A stretch of DNA of 64,000 bases from positions 2,502,501-2,566,500 of the forward strand of contig CP126191.1 in NCBI GenBank assembly GCA_030272155.1. Reading direction: 5' to 3'. Below the pieces are notes generated by a model. It did not search any database. It saw only the letters and a list, made by a program, of their open reading frames with translations, and was not told where the DNA came from. Source of the stretch: Tetradesmus obliquus. Its lineage: Eukaryota > Chlorophyta > Chlorophyceae > Sphaeropleales > Scenedesmaceae. The position numbers and the translations under genes are program-made. Each line of letters begins with the position of its first letter. The first letter of the stretch is position 1. Below are positions 4,301-54,610 of this stretch, piece after piece.

Positions 4301-6260
4301 GCAGACTTCTCGTCAGCCATCGCGCTGGACCCCAAGAACGCCGACTTCTACCACAACCGGGGCTTCTCGCTGCGCAAGCAGGTGCGCAGCTGGCTCAGCG
4401 GTGGTCATGATGCCCGTATTGGGAGTGGCAGTGGCGCTAGCAGCTGGTGCTGCTGGGGATGGGAGGGTAGCAAGACGATCTGCTGGTGCCTGGGCAGGTG
4501 CTCCTTGCTTTGTCATGCACACCATTTGTGCCTCGCCTCACACCTGGCCGCCATGCTCTGTGTTCTTGCAGGGCTGCTTCAAGGCTGCTATTGAGGACTA
4601 CACGCAGGCCATCGGCCTCAACCCGCGCCACTGCCGCGCCTACTACAACCGCGCCTTCAGCCACGACAGGCTGGGCCAGTACGAGGAGGCGGTTGCGGAC
4701 TACAGCCGCGCGCTGCGGATAGAGCCCGCCAACGCGACAGCGCTGCACAACAGGGGCAGCTTGTTTGAGCGGGTGGGCAGGTGCGTGGCGCTGGCTGCTG
4801 GCTGCTGGCTGCTACCCTCCCGCTCACCGCGAGTGTGCCAGTACTCAGGCGCAGCTGCTGTGTGCTGTGTGTGTGTGTGGTGTGATGCGAGTACTCTTTC
4901 CTCTGCCGCTAGTGCTGCTGCCACTTCACACCTGCTGCTGCTGCTGCTGCTGCTGTGTTGCTGCGCTTGCGCAAGCAGGCTGCAGGAGGCGCTGCAGGAC
5001 TTCAGCGCAGCCATTGCCACCGACCCCTCAGCAGCACTCAGCTTCAACAGCAGGGCGCTGCTGCTGGAGCGGCTGGGCCAGCCAGAGGCGGCGCTGTCAG
5101 ACCACGACGCAGCAGTAGCGCTGGATCCTGAGGATGCGGGCTACGTGAAGGCGCGGGGGCTGTGCCACAGGACCCTGGGGCAGTATGAGGCAGCAGCGCA
5201 GGACTTCACCAGGTGGGTAGGGCTGGTTGCAGGAGCAGCACTTGTTGCCAGCGGGCAGTGGTAGATGCGCCTGGCTGCAGCTGTGGATATGGGGTAGCTG
5301 GCAGTGCTGCAAAGCGTGGTGCTGAACGCGCCGCACTGTGTACTTTGTAAGCTGAAGAGGCTGCTTGCCGCGTTGACTATGCTGACCTAGCGCTTGCTGC
5401 CCTGCTTGGACTGGGTGCGCATTGTTGTATGGCCAGGCTGATCGAGCTGCTGCCTGACGACCCCAGCGGCTACAGCAACAGGAGCTACGCATTTAGGAAG
5501 CTGGGCGACTACGAGGCAGCAGTGGAGGACTACACCACAGCGCTGGCGCTCACCGGCAGCGGCAGCACGCGCCTGCACAACAACAGGTGCGGGCCGCATG
5601 CTGCATGTACGGCATGCACAGGGGTGCCACCCAACCGTCCAAACAGCTGCCCGCCTATGTGTCTGCTGCCTGCAAGTGCCGGCACCCAGCATCTGCTTGG
5701 TCACTCGTTTTCTCTCCCCTCTGCTTGCGCTGCTGTTAATGATTCATATTGTACTTCTGCCATGCAGAGCGTACTGTCTGGCCAAACTGGGCCGCTACCA
5801 GGAAGCCATTGCTGACTACGATGCTGTTGTGGCGCTGGACCCCAATAATGTGCACGCCTTCCACAACCGCGGCATCAGCTACGACAAGCTGGGGCATTTT
5901 GAGGCTGCTATTGAGGACTTCAACCGCGTGCTGCAGCTGGAGCCCAACAACAGCGTGGCGTTTTTCAACCGCGGCAGCACCTACGACAGCCTGGGCATGC
6001 ATGATGCGGCTATTGCGGACTTTGGGCGGGCGCTGGAGCTGGACCCAGGCACGCAGCAGCAGCAGCACCACGGCAGCGGGTGCGGCAGCGGCAGCGGCAG
6101 CCCGGGCCCGGACCTTGTGGCAGCTGCAGGGTGGCAGCAGCACTCGCCGCAGATGCACCTGCAGCAGCAAGGGAGCCCTGCAGCACGCAGCAGCAGGTCT
6201 GGCGGCAGCAGCCTGTCGCTGGGGCAGCAGCAGCAGCACTGCTATGCGCGGCATATGTAG
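1381..6260 (+). CDS. TPR repeat protein, 936 aa, 9 exons
   Basis: Exons: 1381-1696, 2103-2327, 2744-2977, 3188-3930, 4175-4381, 4572-4780, 4979-5212, 5437-5586, 5768-6260; all phases close and the stop is TAG at 6258. An N-terminal block of three to four TPRs lies at about residues 70-195. A low-complexity Ser/Gly/Gln-rich linker follows at about 196-455, with two poly-Q runs. Then come twelve nearly perfect TPRs at about 458-866, with the usual NRG, LG.YEEA..DY and LDP signatures, and a Q/G/S-rich tail. TPR solenoids bind other proteins and are not enzymes. The NRG-type spacing resembles large TPR proteins such as TTC6 and prokaryotic-style TPR arrays, but the partner and compartment cannot be read from sequence. 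No signal peptide or membrane segment is visible. Exon borders in the second block tend to fall between helices, so the array probably grew by exon-sized steps. The start is the first ATG of a long open exon; an upstream non-coding exon is possible. Confidence 0.9.
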
Positions 6261-11293: not shown

Positions 11294-12393
11294 CTGCTTT
11301 CTTCTACTTCCTGCAGGCACGAGGTGTACGACAGCAAGACTGACGTGTGGAGCTTTGGCGTGCTGCTGGCTGAGCTGCTGACGGGGCACATCCCGTACCA
11401 GCACACCTTCATGACGCCGGTGCAGGTGCGCCGCTGCAGCGCAGGGCATGCAGCTAGTGTGTTTGTATGTCAGGGCGTTTGGCTGCCAGAGCACTTTGGT
11501 GTGCTGCTGCAGCGCAGCCCAGGGCATGCAGCGCCCTGCATGTAGCGCAGTGCAGGGCATGCAGCTAGTGTGTTTGGTCAAGTGTGAGGGTGTTGGGCTG
11601 CCAGAGCACTTTGCGAGATGGGCGTATGGCCACAGCGCAAGTGTGTGCGAGCCGTGGCATGCAGTGCGAGGCATGGCCTGGCTGTAGTGCCAGGCGCTGC
11701 CGTGCTGAGCTGCATGCACTCAGGCCTTGCTGCCCAGGTCATCAGCCCTTTAGCCATGCTCCAATCGCTTGTCTTCCGCTGACATGCTCAGCTGGTGTCG
11801 TGGGTTTTCGTGATTCTCTCTGTCTGTGTGCTGCTGCTGCTGCTGCGTCTGCTGCTGCTGCGTCTGCTGCCAGATCGCCATGGGTGTGGCTGACGAGAAG
11901 CTGCAGCCGCTGCTGCCGGGGCAGCTGCCCACGGAGCTGCTGGTGCTGTGCCACGCATGCTGCGACTTCGACCCAGACATGCGGCCGGGCTTCGCCACAC
12001 TGGTGGAGGAGCTGGAGGGGGCAGTGGCCACGCTGCAGGTGCGCTTTCAAAGTGTGCGGCGGTTGCTGGGTTCATGTTCGTCTGAACCTCTGTCGCAGGG
12101 TGGATGCCGTACATCAGGTCTACATCTGCTGTGAAATGGGGACAATCTTGTGGATGTAAAGCCAAAGCAATAACGCGATCGGTCCCAGCTGGTTGGTTGT
12201 GGCGAGCCGTGATCAACCTGGTAAGAGTTCACAGCACGCTGGTGTGTGTTGTTGCGCTGACTTCTGTGCTGGCTGCTGCTGCCTGCAGAAGGATGCGGAG
12301 GCCGCTGCTGCTGGCGGGCTGTTTGGGCGGCTGCGGGGCAACAGGAGCATACCCAGCAGCTGGGCGAGTGTGTTGGGGCAAGTCGGCAGCTGA
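8280..12393 (+). CDS. Ser/Thr protein kinase, TKL-like, with N-terminal coiled coil, 479 aa
   Basis: Exons: 8280-8538, 8805-9082, 9537-9608, 10018-10140, 10470-10598, 10849-11048, 11317-11425, 11874-12038, 12289-12393 (stop TGA). Residues 20-85 form a charged, probably coiled-coil helix. Residues 88-150 hold two poly-Q runs. The kinase domain covers about 180-440. It has the glycine loop GQGAFGTTY (about 187-195), VAVK with the ATP-binding Lys207, a helix-C REVE, HRDVKPSN with catalytic Asp306, DFG at about 324-326, a YMSPEMV activation-segment end, DVWSFGVLL and a final RPGF. All catalytic residues are present, so an active enzyme that phosphorylates Ser/Thr is expected. The HRDVKPSN and GT-YMSPE patterns fit the TKL/Raf-like group common in green algae; a MAPKKK-type role is possible but unproven. 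A short basic tail follows. No membrane segment or signal peptide is seen, so it is probably cytosolic. Introns 6 and 7 contain local duplications. Confidence 0.93.
11177..11199 (+). repeat. Copy of a 3' splice site plus exon start inside kinase intron 6
   Basis: These 23 bases match the true acceptor and first bases of exon 7 (11307-11329) at all but one position. The change converts CTGCAG to CTGCAA at the splice site itself. It is a decayed duplicate of an exon edge 130 bases upstream of the used one. Confidence 0.7.
11436..11613 (+). repeat. Direct repeat in kinase intron 7
   Basis: Blocks at about 11436-11499 and 11550-11613 share GCAGGGCATGCAGCTAGTGT followed by a similar stretch ending in CTGCCAGAGCACTTTG. 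A third partial copy of the GCAGGGCATGCAG part lies between them. The unit is about 114 bases and has no coding sign. Confidence 0.7.
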
Positions 12394-17175: not shown

Positions 17176-17967
17176 ATGGAGCAGTTCAAAGCTCCTCCCC
17201 TGTTGGAGGAGGAGCTGTTTAAGCACACTGTGGTTGCTGACTATGTTGTCAACCGCACGGTGCGCCTGTACAGCGACTGCTTTGTGACGCTGGAAGACCC
17301 GGTCAAGAAGCCTGATGACTTCCGGGTGTTCCCGCTGCACCATGCAGGTGTGTGCAGGTGCAATGCAGATGCAACTCACCGCAGCAACACAGACAGGCAT
17401 GACCACATGACATACTCACGCGCCATCCTGCAACACGCTCTGCAACGCACGTGCACCTTGCGTATGCGTTGTTATATGTTCACATCAGCTATGGCAGTAC
17501 AAGCCACTTTGCAGCTGGCAGTGGCACCGCATCGCTGCTGCCAACCTGCACGCTGCTCTCAGCCAACATTGTGACATGTTACGTGTGTTACATGTGCTGC
17601 GCGCAGCTGCGCTGGTGCCTCCCACCAAGGAGGGCATTCAGCGCCGCAAGCGCCACATACGCCCCAAGGGAGTGTACTCGCTCACAGCACTGGCTGCGCT
17701 GCGTGGCAAGGGTCAGCCAGTGGAGCTGGTGCGCTATCATAAACAGTAGCGCTGATCTTTAAGTTGGGGATCAGTTGATGCAGCAGATAACAATGCTGCT
17801 GCTGCTGCTGCTGCTGTAAGGAATCTTGGCGCTGTGATTGAGTTTCAGATACTACTGCTGCTGAGGAGGAGGAGCAGGGGCGATTGAAGCAGCTGATGCT
17901 GAGAAACAGTGGCTCCTGCATGCTGCCTACTGCACTTGCAGCGGACACGTTGCGGCATTGCGACCAT

Positions 17968-18003
<36 letters not shown>

Positions 18004-18091
18004 TGCTGCAGTACACGTTTAAACTGGAATGTGATGGGGCATGGGACTTCCGCTTCTGCTTTGAGACATTGGAGCAGGCACAGGTGAGTGG

Positions 18092-18163
<72 letters not shown>

Positions 18164-18464
18164 ACTAGCACGGCTTGCTGCTGGCTGCATCCACCCTGCT
18201 TGATGGTACAGTGAAGTCACATGCTGCACTGTGGCTGCATGCAGGCAAGGTCAGGGCAGGTCGTGATGTTTTTGTTGAGATTTGTGCACCCTGCTTCTGG
18301 AAACACTTGTTGACACACCCACATCATAATTTTGCTCAACAGCTTTGTGCTTCACCCTGCTCTGGCCTGCCATCTGCTTGTCCATGCAGCGCTGGCATGG
18401 CCAGTTGTCTGCCATCATTGCAGCCCTGCAGGCAGCAGCAGGCGTATTGCCCAAACCCGCAGTT

Positions 18465-18503
<39 letters not shown>

Positions 18504-21406
18504 CGCGAGCAGGGCAGCGAAAGAGGCTCGGAGGCCTCTGGCGCTGCGCGGAGCTCATATGCAGATGCCAGCCGTGGGCGCGGCATGCTGCAAGGTGGGT
18601 GAGATGTGCAGCGCTGATCAATTCGAGCAGGCTAGGTTGGGTGGCTGTTGCGGGATCAGTAAGTGATGCGCAGCTTACTGTTTTGGGAGGTGGTTGACTG
18701 CACAGTTGTAGCGCTAGTTCGTGCAGTGCCATGTGCAGTCAGCAGGGGCGAGCAGTCAGAGGTGCACTGGCTATCACGCGCAACAGCTCCGAGCAGGGCA
18801 ATGGCAAGGGAGCGAAAGGGGTGCTTTTAGCGCGCTTTTGCAAACAAACAGAGACCATGTGTGCACATGCAGCAGGGTGCAGTTGCGTTGCAAGAGGTCG
18901 TGACACAGAGTGCACTACCAGCATGTGCTTTTACAGCAGCTGCAAACTCCTTGAAGGATGCTTGCTACGCAGCTGCAACTCATAGCTGCGCTGTGGCGTG
19001 CTGGACGTGGCAAGTGCTGCATCGCCATGTTGCCACACACTATATCGTGAACAGGTGGAGGGCGTGGAGCCCAGGGGCGCCATCCCTAGCCACATACACC
19101 CTCTCCAGCCTCAACTTACTCAGGAGCTGCAGAGCGGCCTCAGTACTCATACACTCACTCACTCACTCTTCGTTGCGGTGTGTGCTGCAGGCGGCACCTT
19201 CAACAGCCACAACATCCTGCTGTCCACAGGCTCATTCTCAGAAGATGACAGAGATGAGGATTGGACCAAGGTGCGTGGTGAATCCATTGCACACATGCAC
19301 AGTGCGCCAGCAGCTGCTTGCTTCCCAGAAGGGTACCACTGATGAGCACACAGGTTCAGCTGTGGCGACTGCTGTGCTATGCGCTGCGCACGTGCTCAAG
19401 GTTGCTCGGAGAACTAGCTGAGTCTCTGCTCAACTGCCTGGTTCAACCTCTGTGCGCTGTTGCTGCTGCTGCCGCCACAGCTGCTGAATGTGCAGCCTGG
19501 CACGCCCAAGCGCCGCGCGCAGCAGCCGCGCTGGGTGCCCTACACGCACAGCAACGGCCTGGCCATCTACCAGCACCAGGGAAAGGACAGCACCAGCGCC
19601 AGCGGCAAGGGAGGAGAGGAGTACATGGTGCGGGCTCGCTACGCAGCAGGGTTGTTTGTTTGGTTCTAGTGTGACTGCCTGTGCATACATATGCTTGCAG
19701 GAAAGTCATCTGCATGCCATCCATGCTTGTGTCTATGAGCGTGGAGGTACATGCGCAATGATGCTGTACCGCACGACTCTCAGCATCACATTTTGCTCCG
19801 CTGGCTTTAGAACTGACCTCGCCGTCCTGCATAATCGCAAACACGCTTGGCTGCAGGTGTCTGCGGTGATCCGGGGCCCGCCTGGTGACGTGCTGCGTGC
19901 GCTGCTTGACCCCGGCAGCGCCACCACCATCCTGGGGCCTGCGCTGGAGGTGGAGGTGCTTGAAAGCACACCGGGCCGCCAGGTGCGGGGGTCCAATGGC
20001 GCCTTCTTGCCTTGTCCTTGGATGGTTGTCTTTTCAAAAAGTCACAACTTGGGAAATTTGCAGTAGTGCCAGGCTGGAGTTGGAGGTGCTGGAGAGCACA
20101 CCGGGGCGCCAGGTGGGGTCAAATGGCGCTGTCATGACTTTTTGAGAACGTCTGGTCTTTAATGATGTCAAAAAATCAGGAAGCCTGCAGTAGTTGTGCC
20201 TGCACTGGAGGTGGAGGTGCTGGAGAGCACACCGGGGCGCCAGGTGCGGCAATGTTGTACTGCTGCAGATGTTGTCATTGGTGGTGTTACATTGTGGCAG
20301 TGCCGCCACCATCCTGGGCCTCATGCTGGAGGTGGAGGTGCTGGAGAGCACACCGGGGCGCCAGGTGGGGATCACATGGCGCTTTCATGACTGTTTGAGA
20401 ACGTCTGTTTGAATGATTTCACAAACTTGGGATGCTTGCAGTATTTGTGCCTGCGTTGGAGGTGGAGGTGCTGGAGAGCACGTCGAGGCGCCAAATGCAG
20501 CTGCAATGCATACCATAGGTCAAACGCTGTCACTGCGATTGTTTGAGGGATTTTGTTAGGCTTGCAGTGATCGGGTGTCACTGCCTGTAGCTTTGGAGGT
20601 GCATTAGGAGGCAGCATGCACAGCGGCTGGCAGTGTTGTGCGCAAGCTGCTGTGCGTTGTTGGTGCTGTTTGGTGGGCTGCTGGTTTTAATGCTTGCAGG
20701 CAGGCTGGCTTCTACTCCTGACTGTGCAGTGCTGCCCCGGTCATGTGCCAGCTATGACAGCAGACCTGCCTGCATGGCTCGAAGCACTTTCGACCTGTGT
20801 TCCTGCTACTGCCGCCGTACTGTATGGTACAACTTCACAGGTGATGCGCATCCAGGTGCAGGCGCTGGGCAAGACCGCTGCGCTGTTCAGGCCGCGCGAG
20901 GCGGTGGTGCAGCGGCTGCTGAAGAAGGAAGATGACGGCGTGTATGTGGTGCTGTTCAGCAGCGTGGACGCATACGACGCGCGCGCAGCCCTGGCACACG
21001 AAGGTGCGTTGTTATGGCGTTGCTGCTGCTGCTGCGGTTGTGTCCGCCGTTGCTGGTGTATGGTTCCGTATTTGTCTGGCTAGCAGCGCCTTGTCGGCCA
21101 TATGCTTTTTGCCTAGTTGCAGTACTGTTCACGGGTGACGAGCTGCTTAGCGGTGCCAGGTGTATTGGCCTCGCTGCTTGTTGGCGGCGTGTATGTGGTG
21201 CTGTTCGCAGCGTGGACACGTATGATGCACGCGCAGTACTGGCACACGAGGGTGCGCGGTTGGGCTGCTTTGGTTCTCGCCAGTTCACATCAGCCGTTGC
21301 TGGTGTATGGGTCCAGTTGCGTCTGGCTGGCAGCGGCTTGATGCCAGCACCAGTGTTGCGTGGTTGCTGGGTGTGGCTGCAGTGCTTGTTTACTGCTGCG
21401 CTTTGC

Positions 21407-21454
<48 letters not shown>

Positions 21455-24400
21455 CTGCAGGTGTGATTGAGGAGGCTGAGGGCCTGGGCAGCAGTGCGCG
21501 GCTGACGCACCCCATCCGCTGCCGCGTGTCGGGAGGCTACACCATCAGCAAGCTTCAGGGCTTCAGGGGAGCAGACAGCCCAGAGAGCCTGCTGACATGC
21601 ATCCTGCAGGTGCGGTAGTAACATGATAGCGTCGTCAGCACAGTCGTGTATAACAGCGGGCTTTTCACATCCTGCAGGTGCGTTAACAACATGATAGCGC
21701 TGTCAGCACAGTCATGTATAACAGCGGGCTTTTCACATCCTGCAGGTTAACAACATGATAGCGCTGTCAACACAGTCGTGTATAACAGCGGGCTTTTCAC
21801 ATCCTGCAGGTGCGTTAACAACATGATAGCGCTGTCAACACAGTCGTGTATAACAGCGGGCTTTTCACATCCTGCAGGTGGGCGTTGCGCCCACGCTAAA
21901 CGTAACTCTGCTAGCGTGCATCCTGCAGGTGCGGCCTGCGCTGAGCATAACACACGATTGTTAACAACAGCGGGTCATGCCGCAGTGGCTTGTGTGCACC
22001 CTGGCGGCACGGTGACCTTGCTGCGTGGGTGCCGGCGCACACTAATGCACTGAGTTTGGAGTGCGGCAAGTCACAGTTCATCAGTCTTTTCAGTGCTTTT
22101 CAAACTGCGTGTTGCAGGTGAATGACATGGGCGGCTGGCTGAACCGCTCCCACCCGCTGTTCCGCGCTGTGGACTGGTGGAGTGGTGGGGCCTATGAGGC
22201 CTTCCTGCAGCGCATGCTGCTGGGTGTGACGCTGGTGCGCGACGTGGTGGAGAACAGCAGGTGGGTTTGACTGTGTTTGACTGGGTTTGACTGGTTGGAC
22301 TTGTTTGACCTGTTTGACTGGTTTGGCTTGCATGGTGCACGACGTGGAGGACAGCAGGTGGGTTTGACTGTTTTGATCTGTTTGACTGGCTTGAGTGGTT
22401 TGGCTTGCAAGGTGCGCGATGTGGTGCAGAACAGCAGGTGTTCTGCTGCTGCACTCAACTCGTTCAACAGACTGACTTGTGCGACGTGAGTAGGAAGTGG
22501 GCAGCTTACAACTACTTGCATGCTCTGTGTGTATGCTTTGTGATTGGTGGGAGTGAAGTTTGGCCTAAGCGGTTGTAACATGCATGAGGTGTTGCCTTCA
22601 CATTGCGTTTATCATATGCTATGGCAATGAATCATGCACCAAAAGGCGCGAAGCATGCACCCATGGCAATTTGCCAACGGTGTGCTGCTGTGCCATCATC
22701 CCTGGCTGCAGGTTTGCGGTGAAGCAGCCTGCTCTAGACTTCCAGGAGCACCAGCCAGAGCAGGAGCAGGAGGGAGAGCAGCTGCAGGAGGCAGGCGCAG
22801 CCCCTGGACAGGCTGGCAAGGTGCGGCAGACTGTGCGCCGTAGCATTTGTATAACAGATATAAACATTTTAAATAAAAAATTAAAAAGGAAACCTTTTTT
22901 GATATGTATTTTTAGAAAGATATAATATAAAAAAATTCAGGAAAATAGAACACTGTGCCATCCATGCCTTGCTGCTGCGTCGAGCAGCGCGGCAATGAGA
23001 GTGAAGTCAGCTTTGCACAGGCCTGCCACACCCACACACCTTGTGCCTGCACTGCCATCCCCACGGCCTGCTGCATTGTTTCACCTCATCATCTTATGCA
23101 CATGAGTTGCCGCTGTGCGCTTCACACCCTTGTTCCTTCCGCCCCTCAGGCCCTGCCCAACCTGCGCACCAGCACCTTTGTCATGCGCCAGGCGGCAGCC
23201 TCAGTCGGCGTCGCCTCGCCTTTCGCTACAGCCGCCGGCCCACCTTCCTCTGCCGGATCCTCTCCAACCGCATCATTCCGCCCCAACAACAGCATCAGCG
23301 GCAGCGGCGCAGGAAGCATCCCTGGGCAGCGCCTGCTCATGCGGCCCAGCAGGCTAGCTAGCCAGAGGCTTCCAGGCAGTGGCGCGCTCAGCATTGGCTT
23401 GAGTGGCAGCGGGGTGCAGCGCATCGGCTCTGCGCTGGCGCCTGCTGCTGAGAGTGACCTAGAAGAGCCGGAGCCAGAGTTCAAGCTGCCTACGTGAGTT
23501 ATGACTGTTACTATTCGTGGTTTGACAGTCAGGTTATTGCCAGCAGCACCTACAGCGCGTGCACTGTTGCCATCAAACCACTCAACTGCGCCACCAAGCA
23601 CGCAACGCATGGGGCAGAACCTTGTTGCTGCACAATTTTGACGGGTTGGGCTTATGGTTTGGTAGGTGCTGTGTGCTGGCGGACCCTGCCTTGCTGCTGA
23701 GCTGGTGCAGAAGAGGGCTGCAGCTTCCGTTGACAGCAACCTGTGCTTACTTCACACTGCATCATAGAGCTCTAAACCCTTTGAGTTTATGCGGCTGGGC
23801 GTACACCTTGCCTCTGCTTTTTCTTTCCACTGCACCTTTTCCATATGCAGCAAGTACTACCAGGAGATCCACACCCCGGGTGCTGACGCGCCCTTCAAGC
23901 TGCGCGGCCCCACCTACCTCAGCGATGGCCGCAAGGTGCCTGCGGGCCAGCCGCTGTTTGAGCTGCTGGGCATGGAGGTTGTGGACGTGGGCGGGCCGGG
24001 GCCCTGCCCACACATCTCACGCTACCTGCCCAGCGTGAGGTGAGTGAATAGTGAGGGTGCAGGGGAGGGCTTGTTGTGCAGGCAGGGGAAAGGGCCGGTG
24101 CTGGGAGGGCCTGGGGTGGGAGAGCTGTGCTTGCAGCTCTTTCCTCCCTCAAGGTTTGATGGGATGTGCTTGCTGGGGAATATTATGCCGGCGGTATGCG
24201 GGGTTGCTTGTAGGGTGCAGCCGTAGCTGCAAGTGGGAGGGCGCTTTTTGCTCGAAACTTAAATGCACGACTGCAGCTTCCAAAAGGTCCCAGCAGCGTG
24301 CAGCCCGCTGCAACACGCCCTCTACATGACGCAATTCATAGTAACAGTGTGACGCGCGCCACCCGCGTCACGAGGGGGGTGACAAAGGTTGATCACTGCC

Positions 24401-24659
24401 CACCTCTGCTCGTGCTGACTTTACCATGCCTGCTGCCTGTGCCGTACCTGTTTTATCTTCTGTCCCCGCAGGCGCAGCAGCAAGCCCTTCCTGTTTGTGT
24501 ACAACCTCATGGTACCAGGGCCGCCCACCATCTGCTGCGTGTTTGTGTTTGGCGCGGACAGCCACCCCAACGCGCTGGGGTCCCCGCCTGACGACCCTGA
24601 GGAGAGCAGCAGCTGGACGCCATTTGACTTCCTCATGTACAGGTGAGGTTGCAGAAGAC

Positions 24660-24696
<37 letters not shown>

Positions 24697-25997
24697 GGTT
24701 GCTGCCATGCTGGACGCCCTTCGACTTCCTCATGTACAGGTGATGCGCAGCAGCGGGTCAGTGATGAGCGTTGTTGACAGGCCCCTCACACGAGCTCTGT
24801 CTCTGTTGCGCTTGGAGTTGCAAATGAGGAGAGCAAGGGCTTGCCTGCTTCTCATGCGCAGGACTTGTGAGTTGGTGGACGCAGTAAGGGTCACTGCCAT
24901 GCTGTGCGCCGCTGGAGGGCTGTGAGGAGCTGAAGTCATGTGCATGCTGCCCACCTCCTGTGGTTGGTCTACTGCTGCTGCACCGCAGGTTCCTGCAGGG
25001 CGATGACGAGGCGTGGAGCAGCAATGGCTTTTTTTGATGTCGTGCACCATGCAGCAGGCTAACAGTCATGTGTTTGGTTGTCTGGTGCGCCGCAGGTTCC
25101 TGCAGGGCGATGACGAGGAGCGGCGCAGCATGTTCAAGATGATTCCTCGCGTGGCTGAGGGCTCCTGGGTCATCAAGCAGAGCGTGGGCAGCACGCCTGT
25201 CATTATTGGCCGCAAGCTGGGCACCAGTTTCCACATCACGCAGAAGTATGTGGAGGTGGCGGTGGATGTGGGCAGCAGCAGCACCGCGCAGTACATCACA
25301 GGCATGGTGAGGCGGCCTGATTTCTTGACTGCTGATTTTATTGCGTGTTTGTTGTTGTTGGTGGTGGTGCTGCTGCCGCTAATGGCGGTGGATGTGGGCA
25401 GCAGCAGCACCGCACAGTACATCACAGGCATGGTGAACCGGCCTGAGTTCTTGAGTGCTGGTCTGATGCATTGTTGTTGGTGGTGGTGGTGCTGCTGCTG
25501 CTGCTGTTGGCGGTGGATGTGGGCAGCAGCAGCACCGCGCAGTACATCACCGGCATGGTGAGGCGGCCTGAGGTCTTGACTGCTGATTTGATTGCGTGTT
25601 TGTTGTTGTTGTTGGTGGTGCTGCTGCTGCTGCTGCTGTTGGCGGTGGATGTGGGCAGCAGCAGCACCGCGCAGTACATCACTGGCATGGTGAGGCGGCC
25701 TGAGTTCTTGACTGCTGATCTGATGGCATGTTTGTTGTTGGTGGTGCTGCTGCTGCTGCTGCTGGTGGTGGCGGATGTGGGCAGCAGCAGCACCGCGCAT
25801 GACATCACTGGAATGGTGAGGCGGCTGGTAAAAAGCAGGCGGGGTCTTTTAATGGCGGCTGTGCAGGGCCAGTGGCGGTATTGGGGGGCATAGGACTAGG
25901 GTGTTGGGTTTACAGAGCGTGCGCTGTGTGGGCAGGGTCAGCTGCAGGGGTAGGTAGCTGGCGCCTGCTTCACGACTGCTGCCTGCACGTTTGTTGG

Positions 25998-26056
<59 letters not shown>

Positions 26057-26151
26057 GTGGTGTTGCTGCCTGATCATGTGAGGCGGTGGGCACGGCCTGG
26101 TGCTGGACCTGCCTCTCGGCTGCTGACTGCATGTGCTGCTGCTGCTGCATG

Positions 26152-26214
<63 letters not shown>

Positions 26215-26734
26215 ACGTGCTGTGCCTGCTGCTGCCCGGTCAGGTGCGCGGCGGTGCACGCAATCTGGTGCTTGACCTTGGTCTGGTGCTGGAGGGGCAC
26301 CACAGCTGGGAGCTCCCTGAGGAGCTGCTGGGAGCAGTGCGGTGAGGCGGCCTGTGTAGAAGACAGGCAAATACAGCAAACACGGCATGTTTGATGTTCA
26401 AAGAGTTTGCTGTCCTCAGCGGAAGTGCTGCGAGTCAGGGTGTTCACCTGGTGTTGGGACAGTGTGACGACTCCAGGCAGTAAACCACCCGTCAGCGCCG
26501 CATGCGTGCATGGACACACAATGCGCCTGCTACTGGTTACATGTTGTGTGTGGTTGGTTGCAAGCCAGCATAAACTTCGCGTCATCTGACACAGGTACCT
26601 CATGCTGCTGCTGCTGCAGGGTGATCCGTCTGGACCTGTCTGCTGCCTCCAAGCTGGACGACAGCAGGGAGGTGCCGCTGCGCATCGTCAGCAGCGAGCA
26701 GCCGGCAGACTCTGCTGAGTCAGCAGCAAGCTGA
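17176..26734 (+). CDS. EDR2-like protein: PH, START and DUF1336 (EDR2_C) domains, 871 aa, 17 exons
   Basis: Exons: 17176-17347, 17607-17728, 18012-18083, 18390-18594, 19191-19270, 19481-19627, 19857-19982, 20841-21003, 21461-21609, 22118-22260, 22712-22820, 23150-23493, 23851-24039, 24472-24642, 25096-25306, 26244-26341, 26620-26734 (TGA). Every junction keeps phase. Residues about 10-150 form a PH-like domain, split by intron 2 and followed by a poly-Ala run and Ser-rich linker. About 245-470 is a START lipid-binding domain, including EDDGVYVVLFSSVD. About 500-610 is a low-complexity linker. About 615-850 is the DUF1336 domain, with PFLFVYNLMVPGPP, FKMIPRV, GSSSTAQYITGM and LPEELLGAVR. The order and size match plant EDR2 (about 720 aa), a membrane/phosphoinositide-associated regulator of defence and cell death. 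In an alga only lipid binding at membranes can be inferred. An open stretch at about 19053-19135 could be an optional extra exon; the model closes without it. Seven of the 16 introns carry copies of exon edges, and intron 11 holds AT-rich foreign-looking DNA. Confidence 0.92.
18092..18163 (+). repeat. (TGC)24 microsatellite in EDR2-like intron 3
   Basis: An uninterrupted run of 24 triplets starts just after the intron donor at 18084. A shorter CTG run (about 17969-18000) closes the preceding intron immediately before its acceptor at 18011. Confidence 0.95.
19939..20498 (+). repeat. Tandem array of the START exon end, five copies
   Basis: The last 44 bases of exon 7 (19939-19982, encoding LEVEVLESTPGRQ) recur downstream in the intron, ending at 20112, 20243, 20364 and about 20494. 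The first three copies keep the CAG|GTG donor; in the last it has become CCAAATG. Spacing is 130, 131, 121 and 130 bases. The filler between copies is also related (tracts around TTTGAGAACGTCTG and an AATGATGTCA/AATGATTTCA element). Confidence 0.9.
21186..21340 (+). repeat. Duplicate of START exon end and following intron, 248-bp shift
   Basis: 21186-21256 copies the end of exon 8 (20938-21003) including its GTGCG donor. 21291-21340 copies the intron sequence following the true donor (about 21044-21093). The copy has lost one base within the coding part, so it could not be spliced in without a frameshift. Confidence 0.85.
21408..21451 (+). repeat. (CTG)n tract before an acceptor
   Basis: About 15 triplets run directly into CTTCTGCAG, the acceptor of exon 9 at 21461. 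The tract takes the place normally held by the polypyrimidine stretch. Confidence 0.85.
21600..21928 (+). repeat. 64-68-bp tandem array seeded at a 5' splice site
   Basis: The exon 9 end and donor (ATCCTGCAG|GT at 21609) recur with the boundary at 21677, 21745, 21809 and 21877, plus a short copy at 21928. The units contain AACATGATAGCG, ACAGTCGTGTATAACAGCGG and CTTTTCAC. Spacing is 68, 68, 64 and 68 bases. The copy at 21745 lacks the bases GCG after the GT. Confidence 0.92.
22225..22440 (+). repeat. Three copies of an exon end with TTTGACTG minisatellite
   Basis: The end of exon 10 (GACGTGGTGGAGAACAGCAG|GTG, boundary 22260) recurs at boundaries 22357 and 22437. The intervening DNA is a degenerate run of TTTGACTG/TTTGACTGG units (about 22265-22326 and 22363-22400). 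Confidence 0.88.
22846..22955. other. AT-rich insertion, possible organelle-derived DNA
   Basis: About 110 bases inside EDR2-like intron 11 are overwhelmingly A and T, while both flanks are normal GC-rich intron. The block includes a perfect stem AAAAAGG-AAA-CCTTTTT (about 22884-22900), like the 3' stem-loops of plastid or mitochondrial transcripts, followed by further A/T runs. The + strand stays open through it (end of a frame stopping at 22925), but the match to any organelle gene is not recognised. Confidence 0.55.
24709..24739 (+). repeat. Copy of the exon 14 end with donor
   Basis: It repeats 24612-24642 (encoding WTPFDFLMYR) with two substitutions, followed again by GTGA. It lies 97 bases into the intron, after a (CTG)11 tract at 24663-24695. 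Confidence 0.85.
24982..25023 (+). repeat. Copy of the exon 15 acceptor and start
   Basis: The true exon start (25096 on: CGCAG|GTTCCTGCAGGGCGATG) is preceded 108 bases upstream by an almost identical acceptor and exon start. This one is an exon-start duplicate; most others in the gene copy exon ends. Its sequence diverges after GACGAGG. Confidence 0.85.
25255..25818 (+). repeat. About 126-bp tandem array of the DUF1336 exon end, five copies
   Basis: The true exon 15 end (boundary 25306, encoding VDVGSSSTAQYITGM) is followed by four copies with boundaries at 25432, 25557, 25689 and 25815. Spacing is 126, 125, 132 and 126 bases. The first four copies keep ATG|GTGA and the neighbouring CGGCCTGA; the last keeps the donor but has CGGCTGGT. 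Between copies lie GTT/GGT/CTG triplet runs, so parts of the intron read as open frames with hydrophobic Leu/Val stretches. Confidence 0.93.
25998..26053 (+). repeat. (CTG)n microsatellite, EDR2-like intron 15
   Basis: About 18 uninterrupted triplets in the sense orientation, in the same long intron (25307-26243) as the 126-bp array. Confidence 0.95.
26152..26213 (+). repeat. (CTG)n microsatellite close to the exon 16 acceptor
   Basis: About 20 triplets ending 30 bases before the acceptor at 26243. Shorter CTG runs precede it at about 26113-26150. Confidence 0.95.
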
Positions 26735-51888: not shown

Positions 51889-54296
51889 ATGAGGTGGTGG
51901 ACAGTGATCAGCGTGATCTTGCTGGCCATCACTGCCACGGCTGCAGCAACCACCACACCCAACAGCAGGGCGTCTCTGCAGCGGCAGCAGCACGCTGCGA
52001 GGCAAGCAGATCGCGATGATCGACACGAGGAAGGTGAGTGGTGTCGGTATGGATGTTGTGCGGGCACTGATGTCTTCAGAATGTTCGCGAACTTATGCAG
52101 AGCGAGCAGTGACCGTCACTGTGAGGCAAGGTGGGCTGCGCTAAACGCTTCCATTCCTGCTGCCGATTGTTGATATTGCAGTGGGAGTTTCACCCGCTGC
52201 AATTGGAGCTCCACTCGCCAGTCCACCTGCAACAGATGCAGCTCAGCCAGCAGCAGCTCAGACACCAGGTGCGTCAACAGCAGCAGCACAGCCAGCACAA
52301 CAGACGATGCTGGAATGTTGGAATTTCCATGAAAGCAGCTTCTGGACGTTTGATGTTCAGCTTGACGTCTTCCAGCAGCTCATGTATGATGTTGCCTGCC
52401 TGCCTGCCTGCCTGCCTGCAGGTGCTGCCACAGAGCCAGTGGGCCAGCTGCCACCCAATGTTCAGCAGCGGCAGCAACAGTTCCTTGCCAGCATGCTCTC
52501 TGCACCGCAGCCTGTGCAGTCTGCCTACCAGAATGCGCTGCAGGTTATGCAGCGGCGCTTGCAGGAACAGGCAGCAGCCCGTGCTGCTGTAGCAGCAGCA
52601 GCCCAGCAAGCGCGTCCAGCAGCCCAGCAGGCGGGTGCAGCAGCCCAGCCCCAAGTTACCACTGCATCAGCGCAGTTCTTGGCAGAGGTGACAGTGCCTG
52701 AGCAGGGGCACCCGCACCGGCCAGTCCTTCTTCCAGCTCGCGTGCTGCGGGTGACATCTCAGCAGCACCTGCAGCAGGTGCTTGCTCAGTTGGAACATGA
52801 GTTTGACGTACCGCTGCAGTACTCCGTGCAGTATCTGCTGCCAGCAAAGCCACCCATGCAGCCGCAGCTGCCGCCTCAGCAGCCGCCTGTGCAGCCACAG
52901 CCTCAGCTGCTGCCTCAGCAGCAGACTGTGGCACGCGCAGAGACAGCATCACAGCAAGAACGCCTGCGGCACGAGTTTGTGCAGCAACTGGAGCAGCGGT
53001 TTCAAGGCAACGCCACCTCAGACCTGCCCGGCACAGGTGAGCCGGCATCTGGCACTGCAGTAGGCTAATGTGGGCCAGTGCAGTGGGCTTTGGCGCATTG
53101 CATAAGGCTGCAGTGGCCTGCGCAGCAGGCAGCATGGCAATGCAGAGTGCTGCAGACTGCCGCCAAGCAGCTGTGTGCGAGCCCTAGCATCCCTGTGGCC
53201 ATTGGGCAGTCAAGCTAAAGGTCCTGCACTGTGTTTGCTATGCCGCTTTGCAGGTGCTGCTGCAGGCAATGCAGGCATGTTACTCGGTGCTGCTGCTGCC
53301 GTTGCGGCAGCTGTTGGTGCCAGTGGCGCAGCTGCTGCAGCAAACCCCGCCCGTCGCCGCAATTGGGTGCAGAATTTGTTTGCCCGTGTGCAGCGTGATC
53401 AACAACAGCGGCAAAACCGGCAGCAGAACGCAGATGCACAGCGTGGCAGCCGGCGCCTACAGCAGCAACATTGGCGCGCCAACCGCGGTGAGCAGGAGGC
53501 TGCTGCAGACAGGGAGCGCAACAGGCAGCAGCAACAGCAGCACCGTGCTGACCGCAGTGAGCAGGAGGCTGCTGCGGACAGGGAGCAGAACAGGCAGCAG
53601 CAGCAGCAGCGGCGTGCCAACCGCAGTGAGCAGGAGGCTGCTGCTGATAGGGAGCGCAACAGGCAGCAGCGGCAGCAGCAGCGTGTCCGCAACAAGCCAC
53701 TGTACAAGGTTGAGAGCCGTGTGTACAGCAGTGCTGACTCAGTGGTGCGCGGTGAGCAACAAGGTCACCTGTATCCACCAGAGTTTTTGAACACTCTGCG
53801 CATGTCTGGCTTGCCGCCACACAAGCTGCGCTTGCACGTTGGGTGCCCTATCATTCTGCTGCGCAACATGTCTGCAGGATTGGCGAATGGCACACGCATG
53901 GTGGTCACGAAACTCATGGACAACTTCATCCAGGCAAAGGTGGCCACAGGCCCTGTAAAGGGCCGAGTGGTGTGGCTGCCACGCCTGAACCTGCAGCCCT
54001 CTGATGCACAGGCTATGCCTTTTGATATGTGCAGGCGCCAGTTTCCAGTGCGCGTTGCATATGCCATGACAATCAACAAGGCGCAGGGGCAGACCCTCAA
54101 GGCAGCAGGTGTGTACCTGCCTCGCCCTGTGTTCTCGCATGGTCAGTTGTATGTTGCCTGCTCGCGGGTTGGCATCTGGAGTGCCCTCAAGGTGTTGGTG
54201 GTTGGGGGCTTCCGTGCAGCTACTGCGGCTATTGCAGCTGGTGTGTACACTAAGAATGTTGTGTATCGTGAGGTGTTCCAGGGCATCGGGGTTTGA
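51889..54296 (+). CDS. Chimeric gene: signal-like N-terminus, Q/A-rich repeats and Helitron/Pif1-type helicase C-terminal part, 629 aa
   Basis: Exons: 51889-52033, 52182-52268, 52422-53036, 53254-54296 (TGA). The N-terminus WWTVISVILLAITATAA looks like a signal peptide or anchor. Residues 50-282 are Ala/Gln/Pro-rich, partly helical. At about 290-310 there is a second small-residue hydrophobic stretch. Residues 345-430 hold three to four repeats of RANRSEQEAAADRERN with Q runs, a linker style found in Helitron proteins. Residues about 430-629 match the end of a Helitron RepHel/Pif1 helicase: LYPPEFLNTLRMSGLPPHKL, the NGTRMVV loop, motif V AYAMTINKAQGQTL and motif VI LYVACSRV. The Walker A/B part, the Rep HUH nuclease and the zinc finger are all absent, so it cannot work as a full transposase or helicase. 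It is either a 5'-truncated element captured by another reading frame or a decayed copy that still reads open. Intron 2 (153 bases) has no stop in frame and could be retained. Confidence 0.6.
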
Positions 54297-54610
54297 GCTT
54301 CACACTGGGCACTGGAACAGTGTGCTTGAGGAACTCGGCCCTGGAGCTCTGGCATGTATTTATAATCTATCATGCTGCAGCTGCAGTGGTTGCGGTAGCT
54401 GCAAATGTCACATGCTGCAACAAGCCGCTGGCCGCGTTTTGCTTATGTAACACACCAACTGTAGCTGGTGTGTAGACGCAAGATGTTGTGTAACATGAGG
54501 TGTTCCAGGACGTTGGGGTATGAGCACCACACTTGGCACTGGAGCAGTGTGCCTAAGATACTCAATAGATGCCGCTCTGGCATAAGTAACTATGCTATAT
54601 GCGTGCAGCT
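54234..54610 (+). repeat. Tandem duplication of the 3' end of the helicase-like gene
   Basis: The last codons plus 3' flank (from AGCTGGTGTGTAC at 54234 to about 54376) recur about 227 bases on (54461-54610). The second copy carries many substitutions, including loss of the frame. It shows GTTGTGT, GAGGTGTTCCAGG and TGGCACTGGA-type matches. Confidence 0.85.

Follow-up and report, generated by a model that had tools for sequence, protein, structure and literature searches.

Exon edges and their splice sites are copied repeatedly into introns of an EDR2-like gene and of other genes in Tetradesmus obliquus

The window analyzed here is a 64,000-nucleotide stretch of the genome of the green alga Tetradesmus obliquus (contig CP126191.1, hereafter C1, positions 2502501-2566500), and it contains an EDR2-like gene on the forward strand at window positions 17176..26734. 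In our curated splice model, the gene has 17 coding exons that form a single open frame of 871 amino acids, with GT-AG at 16/16 introns. The C-terminus of the predicted protein matches the PF07059 EDR2_C profile (E = 1.5e-52), for which 11 other matches are listed in the genome. An original prediction, which numbers the introns as the curated model does, described seven events in introns 7, 8, 9, 10, 14 (two events), and 15 in which the edge of an exon is copied, together with its splice site, into the adjoining intron. Repeat and lag scans show that all seven are present in the sequence with the spacings described. We refer to these copies as decoys. The window was analyzed together with 250 kb more from contigs C1, C2, and C3, which gives a sample of 314 kb in four stretches from a genome of 104.7 Mb in 17 contigs.

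The repeats were located with Tandem Repeats Finder (TRF), a direct-repeat search, and a lag scan (lags 25-600), and all lie on the forward strand. In intron 7 (array at 19914..20501), the end of exon 7 and its donor (original border 19982) are present in four copies with borders at 20112, 20243, 20364, and 20494, at spacings of 130, 131, 121, and 130 bp; the last copy has lost its GT. The end of exon 8 and its donor (border 21003) recur in intron 8 (20933..21340) at lags of 247-249, with copies at 21182-21206 and 21207-21256 and a further match to the intron part at 21290-21340. Intron 9 carries an array of 64-68 bp units at 21600..21880 that hold the motif CTGCAG/GT, where the slash marks the border. 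The first unit overlaps exon 9 by its last 10 bp (border 21609); the exon part of this repeat is 10 bp only, and the case is weaker than originally stated. An additional 18-bp copy of the exon 9 end and donor is found at 21917-21934. In intron 10 (22234..22440), the exon 10 end and donor (border 22260) recur at lags of 97 and 177. Intron 14 holds two different events: a copy of the exon 14 end and donor (24616..24743, border 24642, lag 97), in which both exon differences are synonymous, and a copy of the acceptor and exon 15 start (24975..25130, border 25095) that sits 107 bp upstream. Finally, intron 15 contains an array of 125-132 bp units (25257..25825) in which the exon 15 end and donor (border 25306) recur with borders at 25432, 25557, 25689, and 25815, at spacings of 126, 125, 132, and 126 bp. 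Donor events thus outnumber acceptor events 6:1 in this gene.

Two coding interpretations were considered and rejected. As a general account, coding repeats do not fit spacings of 130, 131, 121, 97, 107, and 248 bp, which are not multiples of three; nevertheless, the gene finder described below predicts exons at several decoys. An additional micro-exon at 19701-19746 ends, as it appears, without a GT donor in the right phase and has no counterpart in the paralog protein discussed below, although a shorter version of it is possible. We also note a short AT-rich patch in intron 11 (22850-22950), against 55-60% GC in the rest of the gene, and long CTG/GCT runs in introns of the gene (18092-18163, 21408-21458, and 25998-26235), similar runs being present at many places in the genome.

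The units were compared over their whole length in the 10 arrays of the sample that passed the length filters and had at least two scorable decoys. In 9/10 arrays, homology between decoy units extends over the full unit and takes in the spacer (best pair z of 4.9 to 21 against shuffles), and in the tenth (stretch C3_2.0, border 47988) no whole-unit homology was found (z of -1.4). Within the EDR2-like gene, this comparison covers introns 7 and 15; introns 9 and 10 fell short of the filters and are tandem as assessed by TRF. We read the units as tandem duplications. When the intron 7 array was searched against the whole genome, with very common words skipped, the array itself and the exon beside it were the only matches, which gives no hint of a dispersed element. 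The intron 15 array gave 55 matches, with 40 of 84 candidates scored, and the listed matches other than itself center on its CTG-rich parts. An introner or other dispersed element was rejected on these results. Similarly, eight spacers were searched against the 314-kb sample for a source of their DNA, and all matches were to the spacer itself, to its array, or of the CTG type.

Exon-edge copies are not confined to the EDR2-like gene. At a score of at least 20, the lag scan yields 45 segments in the window, of which 35 lie inside the EDR2-like gene, and 13, 7, and 60 in the other three stretches, while a control scan at lags of 20,025-20,600 yields 0 such segments in all four. Genes were predicted with a home-made, small hidden Markov model (HMM) that was seeded on the EDR2-like gene and self-trained on the window and the sample; its 508 predicted introns have a median length of ∼260 bp. 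Relative to the curated model, it recovers 31/32 borders and adds 13 extra, and its borders look wrong in three of the listed events (C1_4.0 64882, C1_4.0 13998, and C2_3.0 86335). The intron counts rest on 319 intron spans of 60-1500 bp, each flanked by two successive exons that are 60 bp or longer; shorter exons were passed over, and the EDR2-like gene entered with its curated model. When the two exon edges of each intron were aligned to that intron, 26 matches were obtained in 638 tests, and in 23 of these no more than 5 bp separate the match from the edge as predicted; edges aligned to unrelated introns gave 3 matches in about three times as many alignments. A donor-side copy is present in 19 of the 319 introns and an acceptor-side copy in 11, with 4 of them having both, and a further 4 introns have an intron-internal pair only. 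The nearest lags range from 61 to 293, with 21/30 between 93 and 143 bp.

The genes involved are found in each of the three remaining stretches (C1, C2, and C3), in agreement with the recurrent process that had been proposed. The proposal that mostly the donor is copied stands for the EDR2-like gene and fails outside it, where 303 introns include 13 with donor-side copies, 10 with acceptor-side copies, and 4 with internal pairs only. These donor and acceptor counts are similar, and tandem duplication makes them equal in expectation. The second gene with many events, at C3:2042936-2048868, has copies in 6/9 scored introns, and its product shows modest NAD-binding/epimerase matches (PF13460, PF01370). 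In this gene and one other on C3, the end of the last exon, including the stop codon, is copied into the 3′ flank (C3_2.0 border 48868, lag 156, and border 7822, lag 265), from which it follows that a splice site is not required for the duplication. Simple-repeat content does not differ significantly between introns with and without events (5.7% vs 3.5% of bases, p = 0.23). Elsewhere in the window, duplications without an exon part are seen inside predicted introns of other genes at 54233-54563 and 11436-11613 (lags of 227 and 111-115), and in-frame tandem repeats in predicted exons at 53460-53685 and 5864-6047 (units of 69 and 102 bp) look like ordinary protein repeats.

For a comparison in time, we examined one of the listed PF07059 loci, a paralog of ∼9 kb on C5 of the same genome with predicted splice borders. 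Its predicted protein shares 311 identities with the EDR2-like protein over 693 aligned residues. Introns 7, 9, and 13 are identical in position and phase in the paralog, and intron 12 has a counterpart in the same phase one codon off. For introns 10 and 15, the nearest predicted introns of the paralog are 4 and 2 codons off and in a different phase, and for introns 8, 14, and 16 none of its predicted introns lies within 6 codons. The paralog introns 7 and 9 measure 266 and 284 bp, vs 858 and 508 bp in the EDR2-like gene, and the 9 kb of the paralog contain zero local repeats with a score of at least 18 (lags 25-600). Because introns 7 and 9 occupy the same position and phase in the paralog and are short and repeat-free there, the arrays most likely lengthened old introns, and the suggestion that the process creates new introns is not borne out for these two. 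The EDR2-like protein runs across junctions 7, 9, 14, and 15 and, where it crosses them, aligns to the paralog with no residues inserted, which makes it most likely that the real mRNA uses the exon-adjacent sites, that is, the 5′-most donor and the 3′-most acceptor. The presence of decoy splice sites, as had been proposed, is clear from the sequence; 39/45 decoys, the two stop-codon ends being left out, keep their GT or AG.

Taken together, these results are probably best explained by recurrent local tandem duplication that is filtered by selection on the protein, with decoy splice sites as by-products. Short, local tandem duplications recur across genes of T. obliquus, probably through replication- or repair-based slippage. 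Units that fall inside an exon would damage the protein and be lost, so that selection would act as the main filter, whereas units that straddle an exon edge, whether at a splice site or a stop codon, would leave one exon intact and could persist. The extra exon edge, with its working-looking splice site, would then be parked in the intron or the 3′ flank. The real exon presumably changes slowly, and its copies may therefore stay recognizable for longer than the intron spacers, which would make the decoys a product of neutral decay beside a constrained original; further rounds of duplication would give arrays and longer introns. The original argument that random duplication would not center on borders is largely wrong as it was put: with a median of ∼260 bp for predicted introns and units of mostly 93-143 bp, a randomly placed unit often spans a border, and those confined to an exon interior alter the protein and would be expected to disappear. 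A geometric null, with unit lengths taken from the observed lags, uniform placement, and exon-interior units purged, gives 46% border-spanning units, and a simulation to which ageing and detection were added gives 50-53%.

Two groups of observations weigh against this explanation, the first of which concerns where the duplications fall. Border-spanning calls number 30, in 26 introns, compared with 4 introns that have internal pairs only, a share above the simulated ∼52%. In C3_2.0, some of the events were called on predicted exons which could be decoys in their own right, an effect that rising exon cut-offs reduce. With spans of up to 2000 bp, the 60-bp cut-off gives 323 spans with 5 intron-only cases, and the border-spanning share outside the EDR2-like gene is 23/28, 18/22, 14/19, and 9/14 at cut-offs of 60, 80, 100, and 120 bp, with one-sided p of 0.001, 0.004, 0.051, and 0.27 against a simulated share of 0.525 that was made with the 60-bp cut-off only. 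The excess of border-spanning duplications is apparent with short exons included and weaker with long ones; it is not robust, although a moderate residual excess from extra targeting of junctions is possible. Introns with events also cluster (5/16 in the EDR2-like gene, 6/9 and 3/11 in two C3 genes, and 9/283 elsewhere), and this clustering in few genes is not accounted for by tandem duplication plus selection. A mutational process that targets exon-intron junctions, as originally proposed, for example because breaks are coupled to transcription or splicing or because the template is switched at the recurring CAGGTG motif, would suit both the excess and the concentration in few genes, as well as the several matches that end 4-10 bp beyond the border. 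We regard it as unlikely, since the excess outside the EDR2-like gene weakens to 9/14 at exons of at least 120 bp, the two stop-codon edges are copied likewise, intron-only duplications occur, and the match ends are also explained by conservation of the real exon and its splice site.

The second group concerns the state of the decoys. In 10/10 arrays, the decoy exon parts are more alike than the spacers, with neither being a real exon, a result that is partly ascertainment because matching is what delimits the exon part. In addition, the following intron is without clear homology in 5/13 donor events, compared with 0/78 simulated; the 13 were hand-picked for an exon identity of at least 0.88 and for units that include at least 56 bp of intron, and two of them have doubtful borders. 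Simulations with short indels lose 3/128, 6/101, and 7/91 introns (p of 0.0001 to 0.007 against 5/13), and only long intron indels, with a mean of 10 bp, agree with the observation (27/93, p = 0.53). The codon-position and following-intron tests draw on 27 events, including the two stop-codon ends, with pairs dropped where the copy lies at least 95% in predicted exons. Differences found in single-decoy events number 13, 11, and 47 at codon positions 1, 2, and 3, a third-position excess even against an assumed 45% (p = 0.0005). These features would fit decoy edges that are maintained, either by function as splicing regulators or alternative micro-exons or by homogenization through repeated exchange with the constrained exon. 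This we consider rather unlikely: decoy-specific differences number 15, 10, and 20 by codon position, without a significant third-position bias (p = 0.12 against one third), the splice dinucleotides are retained only as expected (p = 0.83 against exon identity squared), the contrast between exon and intron is reproduced by long intron indels, and the identity of the exon parts is inflated by ascertainment. A version limited to hot-spot genes deserves somewhat more credit, though it is tentative. Exon edges and splice sites would be copied into introns at steps of ∼130 bp and kept exon-like by continuing exchange, so that constrained exons would seed and maintain families of decoys as the spacers decay.

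The Rogers model, in which introns are gained when exon segments bearing AGGT are duplicated in tandem, has its best case in intron 9, where each unit holds CAG/GT and could be a complete intron of 64-68 nt. Units of this kind would leave zero-length exons between them, an arrangement that resembles recursive splice sites. As an account of the events it is very unlikely, given that introns 7 and 9 are present at the same position and phase in the repeat-free paralog, whose predicted borders speak to these two introns and not to 8, 10, 14, and 15, and that the copies sit within introns, whereas the model calls for them at both ends. Misassembly, which had been named as a possible refutation, is most improbable, and we found no sign of it: the copies differ from each other, GT-AG and the frame are intact at 16/16 introns, the pattern recurs in the three other stretches, and the contigs examined are megabases long.

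Parts of several published accounts bear on these duplications. In a potato RdRp gene, a tandem duplication that crossed an intron-exon boundary made a new intron (Ma, Lan and Niu 2016, PMC4974935). As there, the unit duplicated here spans an exon border and copies a splice site, but the outcome in potato is a new intron, whereas here introns 7 and 9, at least, are old and grew, and the copying involves donors and acceptors alike, affects many introns, and often yields several copies. Tandem duplication has also been tied to intron gain in fission yeast (as told in PMC4974935) and in Drosophila, where tandem duplication (TD) introns arise around AG/GT (PMC2891723); the AG/GT duplication is shared with our case, but introns 7 and 9 pre-exist and hold the copies inside them. 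For repair-mediated duplications in vertebrates, Table 2 of Pace et al. 2009 (PMC2671141) gives 4 "partial exon/intron" donors, and the set of that study comprises 824 donors. Those duplications are likewise short, local, and sometimes inclusive of exon-intron borders, but border cases are few there, as opposed to 7-8% of the 319 scored introns here (23-26), with some genes having many and most copies arranged in direct tandem. Neither the genomes nor the methods allow a one-to-one comparison. In experiments with human and mouse cells, fill-in by Pol alpha-primase at breaks produces small tandem duplications (PMC8355091), which makes it a possible source of short tandem units. We found no description of gene-wide exon-edge arrays in the listed open-access titles and starts of abstracts, a scope outside of which most subscription papers lie.

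Each event constitutes a natural experiment in splice-site choice, in which an intron offers up to five similar donors, or similar acceptors. The conserved protein implies that the 5′-most of these donors and the 3′-most acceptor are used. If this is true, something beyond the splice site and roughly 30-50 bp of adjacent exon guides the choice here. Gene finders are misled by the arrays, as shown by the decoys that our HMM calls as exons, and the arrays illustrate a simple way in which introns can grow longer.

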